Positions 23,932 to 27,106 of a DNA stretch of 41,108 bases are shown in pieces. Under the pieces are notes generated by a model. It saw only the letters and a program-made list of their open reading frames with translations. It ran no database searches and was not told where the DNA came from. The stretch is from assembly GCA_028345065.1 (NCBI GenBank), contig JAOMCN010000016.1, positions 1-41,108 on the forward strand, given 5' to 3'. Every line of letters starts with the position of its first letter. Positions within the stretch are counted from its first letter, which is position 1. Source of the stretch: Rhodospirillales bacterium (GTDB taxonomy: Bacteria > Pseudomonadota > Alphaproteobacteria > Rhodospirillales > UBA2165). The translations under genes and the position numbers were made by a program.

Positions 23932-24104
23932 ATTCAAGATACCATAAATACCCTAAAAAATCGTAACACCATTTGTTTATCATATAGCCAATTCTATAAG
24001 TTGGATTGAGCAAGTAGATAAATTAGACCAGATCCATCTTGGGCTTAGATTAAACCGAATGGATTAATGTTATCCGGAGCGCACGCTCAGCCAGAACCAA
24101 GAAA

Positions 24105-24139
24105 AAAAACGGGGCCAATAGGCCCCGTTTTTCTTTTTT
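24105..24139. terminator. Strong intrinsic terminator, active in both directions
   Basis: Bases 24105-24116 (AAAAACGGGGCC) and 24121-24132 (GGCCCCGTTTTT) form a perfect 12-bp stem with an AATA loop. A further T run reaches 24139, and an A run lies on the other side. It sits between the convergent Mth938-domain gene and the PuuD-like gene, closer to the latter, and should end both transcripts. Confidence 0.92.
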
Positions 24140-24657: not shown

Positions 24658-24685
24658 CACGTATTTCTCCTTCTACTTTTAATAT

Positions 24686-24781
24686 TTATGCTCCGATGGC
24701 GTTTACAAGCAACACCATAACCACGGTGATAATGAGACCCAGAACGACGGTTCCTGTTAGTGAATCTAGTGGATTTCCCAT
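24686..24781 (-). CDS. 31-residue single-helix membrane peptide
   Basis: A short frame, MGNPLDSLTGTVVLG and then a hydrophobic helix LIITVVMVLLVNAIGA, stops with TAA at 24686-24688. ATG 24781 is preceded by the purine-rich GGGGAAAGAGAGAT, a good ribosome binding site, 4-6 bases upstream. One helix fills almost the whole peptide, as in small subunits of respiratory complexes. It lies 28 bases before the PuuD-like gene in the same direction, so the two probably form a transcription unit. I do not recognise a family. Confidence 0.6.
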   Translation of the reverse strand: MGNPLDSLTGTVVLGLIITVVMVLLVNAIGA

Positions 24782-24901
24782 GTTTATCTCTCTTTCCCCA
24801 ACAAAATTGAAAATATTAAAACGGCTATGCCTATTGTAATTCAAAATTTGGTTAGAAGTACAGACAGACGACACCCTATTACCTAATTTCTAACTGTTTA
24901 G

Positions 24902-26233
24902 TTAAGGGAAATTTTTTATTTGGGACTTTTCTACTGTTTCAGCAGCATTTTGACCAGACTGGACGGCACTTTCAATGGTTGCGGGAAGGCCAGTGTTGGT
25001 CCAATCGCCAGCTAGATGTAAATTTTCCCATTTTGTATATGAATTGGGCCTAAGTTTATCCTGTGCTGGGGTTTGAGAGATGGTAGCCCGGCGTTCTTTT
25101 AAAACACGGTAGGGCGGTAAGGGGATTACTTTTTCTGGGATAATTGTCGCTATTTCTTGCCATGCTTGTCTAGCTAAAACATTGGCTTCTTGTTCCACAA
25201 GGTCTTTGGCGTTGCTGATGGTCACGGAGAGGAGGTTATTTTTTCGAAATACCCACTGACACATTCCGTTGATAATACCGATAAATGGTACGTCATTGGG
25301 AAGGAGACACAATCGGTTAGGCTTAAAATGAATATTAACGATCGGGTGATATTTTGTTGGAATAGTGACTTCGGGGACGAGTGCTGCTATTTCGTTGGGT
25401 GGTAGAGCTAAGATGATGTGATCGTTCTTGCGACATGTCACCACTTCATTTCCAACGATATAGTTTTCCACTTGGTTATCTGAGAATGAGATTGATCTGA
25501 CTCGTGCACCAAATGTTATGCTGCATTTATGTTCGGCAAGATACTTAATTGCAGGGTCAATTAAGGCGGCGCTTAGGCCTTTAGGTGTGAGAAAAGGCTG
25601 GGCAAAAGCAGGACCACGAAGGAGCGTGAGTTCTAGCATTTTTCCTAATAACCTTGCAGATCCTTCTCTCGCATCAGTGTTTAGAACGGCATTGCTCAAA
25701 GGCTCCCAAAATCGTTTGAACATGGTACTGTTCGGATCAACGTGGTTAGTTAGTGTGGAATTGGGAGATGCGGCGGCAATCTTTTTAAGTACTAGGTAAT
25801 CTTTAATATGTGTACCTGGTATCCGCCGGTGCGGCAGGAATATCCAGAATGGAAGTTTTACATTACCCGGTTGTAGTGTCCATCGTTCAGCATTTTTCAA
25901 ATCAATAAAGGGAAAGGTACTAGGGACTGCTTGGAGGCCCCTGTCACCTCCAATAAGTCTCAGATAATCAAAAATTCCACGGTTGCCTCCCAATATCAGG
26001 TGGTTGCCATTGTCAATCAGGCAATCGAGGATCGAATCATGAAATGAGCGACATCGTCCACCAGCATGATTTGCAGCTTCATACACCCTAATTTCGAACC
26101 CTCTTTGCAGACAATACACAGCTGCTGAAAGGCCAGCCAAACCTGCACCGAAGATATGGACCCTAGTTAAGGATGTATTCAATTCTTTGCCCTTAGTGAA
26201 CGAGTTAATTTTTCCAATATCTGTAATATCCAT
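24902..26233 (-). CDS. hpnE: HpnE-like squalene-associated FAD-dependent desaturase
   Basis: This protein of 443 residues has an N-terminal Rossmann FAD motif HIFGAGLAGLSAAVYCLQRG, then GGRCRSFHDS and DNGNHLILGGNRG, and the C-terminal FAD segment LHLAGDWTNTGLPATIESAVQSGQNAA. This combination matches HpnE, the amine-oxidase-fold enzyme that works with HpnC and HpnD in squalene synthesis for hopanoids. No hpnC, catalytic hpnD or squalene-hopene cyclase gene is in the window. I chose ATG 26233; a longer frame to 26320 would run into the divergent neighbour. The symbol is tentative. Confidence 0.82.
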   Translation of the reverse strand: MDITDIGKINSFTKGKELNTSLTRVHIFGAGLAGLSAAVYCLQRGFEIRVYEAANHAGGRCRSFHDSILDCLIDNGNHLILGGNRGIFDYLRLIGGDRGLQAVPSTFPFIDLKNAERWTLQPGNVKLPFWIFLPHRRIPGTHIKDYLVLKKIAAASPNSTLTNHVDPNSTMFKRFWEPLSNAVLNTDAREGSARLLGKMLELTLLRGPAFAQPFLTPKGLSAALIDPAIKYLAEHKCSITFGARVRSISFSDNQVENYIVGNEVVTCRKNDHIILALPPNEIAALVPEVTIPTKYHPIVNIHFKPNRLCLLPNDVPFIGIINGMCQWVFRKNNLLSVTISNAKDLVEQEANVLARQAWQEIATIIPEKVIPLPPYRVLKERRATISQTPAQDKLRPNSYTKWENLHLAGDWTNTGLPATIESAVQSGQNAAETVEKSQIKNFP

Positions 26234-26260
26234 AAAAAGACTGCAAGACACCAATTTTTT

Positions 26261-27106
26261 ATGGCAGAAAAGGGAATGTTTAACTTTCTCTCTCTTTGTG
26301 CCCAAGAAGTTAGGCGTCACGATTGGGACAGGTATCTTTTCACTTTGTTTGCACCGGCAGACGTGAGAGAGGATCTATTTACAATTTTGGCGTTTAATAC
26401 GGAAATATCAAGAATACCAGATATGGTTAGTGAACCTTTACTCGGCCAAATCCGCTTACAGTGGTGGCAGGATTCAATTAATAACATTTATGCAGGCAGT
26501 TCAAATGGTATTCAAGGTCACTATATATTTGAACACATTCCCAGGGTAATACTTGAGCGAGGACTTTCAAAATCTCTTTTTGATCAACTTTTTGAAGCTA
26601 GAGCATCGGATTTTTCCTGCAATCCCCCGAAGAATGAGCAGGCCCTAGTAGATTATGTATTTGGGACCTCTGCGGCTTTAAATATTTTATTATTGGAGAC
26701 AATAGGAGAGAAAAATGGTTTCGAAGAAAAAGCCGCAGAGGTTGGTATTGCTTGGGGACTGACAGGTTTAATACGTGCTCTTCCAAATTTGGCAAATCAA
26801 GGGCGTTTTCCCTTGCCAATTAGCTTAATTGCACCTGATCAAAATCTCAGTGAGTTTAATAACGACATGGTTCACGCGATTCAATCAGTCTGTGTTATAG
26901 CAAAGGATTACCTTGATAGATCTCTGGAAAGAAATATCTCGGTGAGTAAGGTGCACCGATCAGTATTTTTATCTTCGATTTTAACCACTCTTTATCTAAA
27001 ACAAATTTCTGAGTCAGGGTATAACCCTTATTCCATTGACCCCAGAAATGGGAGGGTTGGCCGGCAAGTTGTGGTGGGTGTAGGAGCGTTATTAGGTAAC
27101 TACTGA
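26261..27106 (+). CDS. Squalene/phytoene-synthase-fold protein, NDUFAF6-like, probably non-catalytic
   Basis: This 281-residue protein has the fold's overall pattern but lacks the prenyl-diphosphate-binding aspartates. The first site, normally DDxxD after AFCR, reads AFNTEISRIPD with Ser50 and Arg51. The second, normally LRDVGED, reads IRALPNLA with Ala173, Asn176 and Leu177. The stretch MVSEPLLGQIRLQWWQDSINNIY resembles the matching part of NDUFAF6, a complex I assembly factor. Automated labels may call it phytoene synthase or HpnD, which the residues argue against. It is divergent from hpnE across only 27 bases and convergent with trmFO. Confidence 0.83.
   Translation: MAEKGMFNFLSLCAQEVRRHDWDRYLFTLFAPADVREDLFTILAFNTEISRIPDMVSEPLLGQIRLQWWQDSINNIYAGSSNGIQGHYIFEHIPRVILERGLSKSLFDQLFEARASDFSCNPPKNEQALVDYVFGTSAALNILLLETIGEKNGFEEKAAEVGIAWGLTGLIRALPNLANQGRFPLPISLIAPDQNLSEFNNDMVHAIQSVCVIAKDYLDRSLERNISVSKVHRSVFLSSILTTLYLKQISESGYNPYSIDPRNGRVGRQVVVGVGALLGNY

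Follow-up and report, generated by a model that had tools for sequence, protein, structure and literature searches.

A 31-codon gene probably encodes the detached first transmembrane helix of a short PuuD-like (DUF989) membrane protein in Alphaproteobacteria

The cytochrome c urate oxidase PuuD consists of an eight-helix membrane domain and a C-terminal cytochrome c domain, and the main text of the 2015 paper describing it gives an N-out/C-out topology with the loop between helices I and II in the cytoplasm (PMC4562309). As set out in the same text, short DUF989 proteins are four-helix proteins that occur in another gene context, and their helices are equated with PuuD helices I, II, V, and VI; a fifth N-terminal helix, either fused or separate, is not mentioned in that main text (PMC4562309). 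Beyond this paper, the literature searched (which included few subscription papers) offered no more than a passing reference to DUF989 and a remark on PQQ clusters, and neither a fifth helix nor a separate gene for it was found described there. The nearest precedent in kind for the arrangement reported here is subunit IIa of ba3-type (B-family) haem-copper oxidases (e.g., those of Thermus thermophilus and Aquifex aeolicus), a single-helix subunit of 34 to 41 residues that was missed in annotation and that stands for an N-terminal helix carried inside the larger subunit of relatives (PMC3128077).

The locus described here lies in a 41,108-nucleotide stretch of a Rhodospirillales bacterium genome (contig JAOMCN010000016.1; the whole stretch is referred to as the window), where a 31-codon gene for a one-helix membrane peptide precedes a short gene of the DUF989 family. 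The peptide shares with IIa the single helix, the omission from annotation, and the correspondence to an N-terminal helix of relatives, whereas IIa is a subunit of a respiratory oxidase and has a polarity opposite to that of the helix it replaces (PMC3128077). In addition, the split and fused helices here are clearly homologous in sequence, unlike the case of IIa, and the partner is a DUF989 protein. With a DUF989 partner and no Pfam match of its own, the peptide resembles ba3 subunit IIa in working only. We regard it as a helix-completing small subunit, a kind that is already known, for which the richness of split and fused forms is unusual.

The peptide frame reads ATG, 31 codons, and TAA on the minus strand, with GGGGAAAGAGAGATAAAC 5' of the ATG (Table 1). 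The gap between its stop and the PuuD-like start is shortened to 25 nt if an alternative GTG at 24660 is used, and the reading frame across the spacer varies among relatives. The earlier note on this DNA, made from the sequence alone, had pointed to a good ribosome binding site, an ATG, one hydrophobic helix, and a position 28 nt before a membrane-protein gene with a strong terminator, and all of these were seen, on the minus strand, which the note had not named. An HpnE-like gene, approximately 120 nt 5' of the peptide gene on the same strand, adjoins the locus in most window-family relatives and is absent there in more distant ones; the wider neighbors in the window are the PuuD-like and HpnE-like genes, DUF498, and secDF/yajC. 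The short puuD-like gene of SAR11 and others (L085-L140) is found downstream of a uvrA-like gene and opposite secF-secD-yajC. Gene order is kept over much of the class, yet a common pathway among the neighbors (HpnE-like, uvrA-like, secDF) was not found.

Table 1. Coordinates of features at the peptide locus within the window
Feature	Position	Strand	Basis
Peptide gene, 31 codons, probable detached N-terminal transmembrane helix (MGNPLDSLTGTVVLGLIITVVMVLLVNAIGA)	24686..24781	-	Homologues, pN/pS, profile search
Purine-rich ribosome binding site of peptide gene (GGGGAAAGAGAG)	24788..24799	-	Read directly
28-nt spacer between peptide gene and PuuD-like gene	24658..24685	-	Direct reading
Ribosome binding site AAGGAG of PuuD-like gene, inside spacer	24667-24672	-	
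Short DUF989/Urate_ox_N (PuuD-like) gene, 168 aa from ATG, four transmembrane helices	24151..24657	-	PF06181
Intrinsic-terminator-like hairpin, 15 pairs and T run, 3' of PuuD-like gene	24102..24135	-	Strong
Flavin amine-oxidase family gene (HpnE-like by position and family), upstream	24902..26320	-	Pfam PF01593

Judged by its conservation in sequence, the minus-strand frame (24781-24686) is a genuine gene. A scan of the window yielded 22 ATG-started frames of 22 to 60 codons that contain a transmembrane-like stretch; the peptide frame was the most hydrophobic of them and was one of the two preceded by a purine-rich ribosome binding site, a property that is kept in most window-family relatives. 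The earlier note had named conservation of the frame and its start, in relatives that keep the downstream gene, as the point on which its reading would fall, and this conservation was found: the start and position of the peptide were the same, and its length nearly the same, at 20 window-family loci that keep the core protein (i.e., the product of the PuuD-like gene). One of these relatives (L006) encodes the same peptide with 17 of the 31 codons differing at the third position and none at the first or second, and window-family relatives displayed up to 22 third-position differences with few at the first and second positions. The mean pN/pS over 190 pairs was 0.30 in the peptide frame, and the two alternative frames gave 0.97 and 1.84; these values are rough because synonymous sites approach saturation (mean pS of 0.63), although the contrast between frames is still plain. 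By this substitution pattern, the peptide frame is under purifying selection. Pfam and NCBIfam models gave no match to the peptide up to E = 1, a weak test for a query of 31 residues, and membership in CydX, CcoS, or another known small-subunit family was rejected on the same models with the same limitation.

The core protein matched PF06181 (Urate_ox_N, DUF989) with 64 bits (cut-off 26.9) and an E value of 2e-17, covering the profile in part as do the published short variants; with its partial match, four helices, and no cytochrome c, the downstream gene belongs with the short DUF989 proteins as described in the main text of the 2015 paper (PMC4562309). Its core helices are homologous to those of PuuD. 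The eight-helix domain and C-terminal cytochrome c of PuuD were not found in this protein of 168 residues, which has four helices and a DUF989 match only, and Pfam detected no cytochrome c domain. The earlier label of PuuD-like is apt for the family resemblance, but half of the PuuD helices and the cytochrome c are missing. RefSeq applies the name urate hydroxylase PuuD to proteins of about 168 residues (NZ_CP073765.1 MHY1_RS16920 and NZ_CP029178.1 DEF76_RS18990). This length is too short for eight helices plus cytochrome c, so the name most likely represents a wrong transfer; because the window pair possesses neither feature, the name is doubtful for the short relatives. HemJ (PF03653, UPF0093) was rejected as the identity of the core, which matched PF06181 only, and replacement of HemJ by the core was also rejected, as 53 of 60 relatives have HemJ independently, among them the genome of the window, where it lies elsewhere (G000:C1). 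No meaningful sequence match of the core to solved structures was found, and Foldseek returned nothing under an E value of 0.001. A second look at structure matches yielded generic four-helix bundles only; cytochrome b6 and the Escherichia coli superoxide oxidase were among them with Z of 10 to 12, scores that did not surpass those of designed bundles. A single His is fully conserved in the core alignments.

Relatives were gathered by using the downstream protein as query, with matches in 41 of 60 near genomes (some being longer PuuD proteins) and in 173 of 385 genomes in the class-wide search; a species collection yielded 80 named loci, largely from Rhodospirillales-like MAGs and Pelagibacteraceae. 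Two arrangements were observed 5' of the core: a separate small ORF, or a helix in frame at the PuuD-like N-terminus, as in L026 where MKNPLLSLEGTIICGLVLTIVLAIIIKGAG is followed directly by LDYAWWSFFFRWLHV. A profile built from both arrangements assigned 234 loci as 147 fused, 81 split, and 6 without a match. Four of the latter were divergent fused forms by eye (L107, L168, L208, and L227) and two were distant paralogues (33% identity); the helix is therefore present in 232 of 232 close homologues, fused in 151 and as a separate ORF in 81, a total that exceeds the number of independent cases as loci overlap between collections (135 after thinning, paralogues included). The separate ORFs are mostly 28 to 34 codons in length and lie just 5' of the core gene, with an ATG start in 80 of the 80 split peptides whose start could be traced, and fused forms also were read outside the class in further members of the phylum. 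When 25 genomes were searched with the peptide profile, one significant match was obtained in each of 19, always at this locus, and these were exactly the 19 genomes with the core protein; no peptide apart from the core was found in the 25.

Given the same start, the selection, and the co-occurrence, the claim of the earlier note that the frame encodes a real, conserved one-helix membrane peptide belonging with the next gene was borne out. Its suggestion that the peptide is accessory to a respiratory complex, in the manner of CydX or CcoS, was not, as relatives show that the helix belongs at the N-terminus of the downstream protein. CydX and CcoS are like the peptide only in size and in their single hydrophobic helix; they differ in lacking any sequence match and in gene context, and no oxidase genes, and hence no oxidase partner, were found among the ORFs listed around the peptide gene. 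Some versions of the helix contain a His (ITALHVIYM in the peptides of L022, L024, L068, L073, and L100) and others do not; the fused forms of SAR11 (e.g., L085) have a His-bearing TVHLSL version. The split peptides of L075, L141, and L146 are extended to 54 to 90 residues by a C-terminal tail rich in Ala, Thr, and acidic residues.

AlphaFold2 modeling of the fused homologue L074 (36 alignment rows) yielded five long helices (residues 8-29, 38-73, 79-111, 128-159, and 166-199) with a pLDDT of 91.5 and a pTM of 0.83, with helix 8-29 being the counterpart of the peptide. A split pair of the window family (L064), modeled as one chain across the in-frame spacer that it naturally has, with Gly at both stops, gave the same five helices (pLDDT of 90.4 and pTM of 0.83), and this model was aided by fused rows in its alignment. 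Residues L5, S7, L8, T11, G15, and T19 (or Ala) are conserved alike in the split and fused helix sets, and L8, T11, G15, and T19, along with M22, are located on one face in both; the helix moment had P values of 0.015 (split) and 0.07 (fused), with phases of 58 and 38 degrees. The presence of the helix as a fused or adjacent element in relatives, its co-occurrence with the core, and the models point to the peptide as a structural subunit, and it very probably supplies the first of five transmembrane helices in a membrane protein, the remaining four being encoded by the next gene. Moving from fusion to interaction relies on an argument of a general kind. The separate gene with its own ribosome binding site in the window, along with the long additional C-terminal tails on some split forms (L141, L146, and L075), would also suit a small protein that acts independently, as a regulator or assembly factor, on the core or on other proteins from outside the fold, in the way that some small membrane proteins modulate a transporter; however, this role is improbable considering that 151 of 232 loci have the helix and the core in one chain, that the high-confidence models place the peptide as the fifth helix, and that no second copy was found elsewhere in the genomes searched. 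It is very improbable that the helix is a mere signal anchor that sets the protein topology and has no structural role: the fused helix does stand before helix I and would hold the N-terminus inside, but a separately made peptide cannot anchor another chain, yet the split form is strongly conserved, and the conserved face is the same in split and fused forms. If the core has the topology of PuuD, the linker of only 8 residues in the fused model would predict an N-in/C-out orientation for the peptide.

The alternation between the two forms was analyzed on a tree built from the 135 core sequences left after thinning (95 fused and 40 split, paralogues included), with the peptide columns excluded. 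Split and fused forms alternate on this tree with at least 13 state changes, 4 of which are forced by firmly supported branches; the PQQ-cluster outgroup is split and the next basal rows are fused, with many forks being weak. The spacers in 79 of the 81 split loci measure 5 to 33 nt, with the other two at 63 and 67 nt, and they are distributed over the three reading frames as 25/33/23. Because all three frames are represented, a product of frameshifting or readthrough is not the general case. In a handful of lineages (L069, L077, L080, L118, and L127), a single in-frame stop alone parts the peptide from the core, so the split and fused states are close and only one step apart there. Those five loci, and a close spacing that fits translational coupling, are what one might expect if the frame were an upstream ORF that controls the PuuD-like gene by being translated, or if frameshifting or readthrough joined both parts into one protein. 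We consider this extremely improbable, as conservation is at the amino acid rather than the nucleotide level, the spacers occupy three frames, and a second stop is present within some of the in-frame spacers.

The two paralogues with 33% identity and further such matches resemble the short PuuD of pqqA-D-E/puuD-like/serC clusters, an order annotated on two plasmid records (L272 and L273) and earlier remarked on in Hyphomicrobium. A small hydrophobic ORF is located 5' of the puuD-like gene in L233, L234, L263, L269, L270, L271, and L273. When the peptide profile was applied to these seven ORFs, five beat all of their own shuffles, one was exceeded by one shuffle, and that of L234 gave no score. 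In L272, a distant PQQ-cluster relative, no such peptide was found upstream, which counts against the subunit reading. These ORFs, that of L273 at L273:2841-2973 among them, have no listed gene and contain a related motif (e.g., MLPHDSLVGTLLAGVVLTMVLAVVAHVLASSSGL); because the plasmid gene table is incomplete, the gap in L273 alone is weak evidence of a missed annotation.

We propose that the peptide and the core would be translated separately from their adjacent ribosome binding sites, probably on one co-transcribed mRNA, and that the peptide would insert with its N-terminus in the cytoplasm. As homology and the models suggest, its face of L8, T11, G15, T19, and M22 would pack on the four-helix DUF989 core, and the packed peptide would complete a fold that in most relatives is formed by a single chain. 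From the fold and by analogy to PuuD, we guess that the assembled protein is a membrane oxidoreductase, possibly with haem; the matches to haem-binding four-helix bundles are generic, so this role is only a guess. A more extended proposal, which we offer tentatively and consider rather doubtful as a whole, is that the pair represents an unrecognized two-gene membrane enzyme, probably a haem-binding oxidoreductase, that forms part of the core of many Alphaproteobacteria including SAR11, with an N-terminal helix that repeatedly moved in and out of the chain and a second version, with a homologous unannotated peptide, serving PQQ-type clusters.

These findings suggest that a tiny gene, of a class readily skipped in annotation, provides a consistent component of a membrane protein that is widespread, and database entries for the "four-helix" short PuuD relatives may lack a part. 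Studies of expression or structure that used just the annotated gene would miss a helix. The alternating forms offer a natural set for studying when and why one helix of a membrane protein passes to a gene of its own, and the pair provides a testable handle on a conserved protein that has been called urate hydroxylase without evidence.
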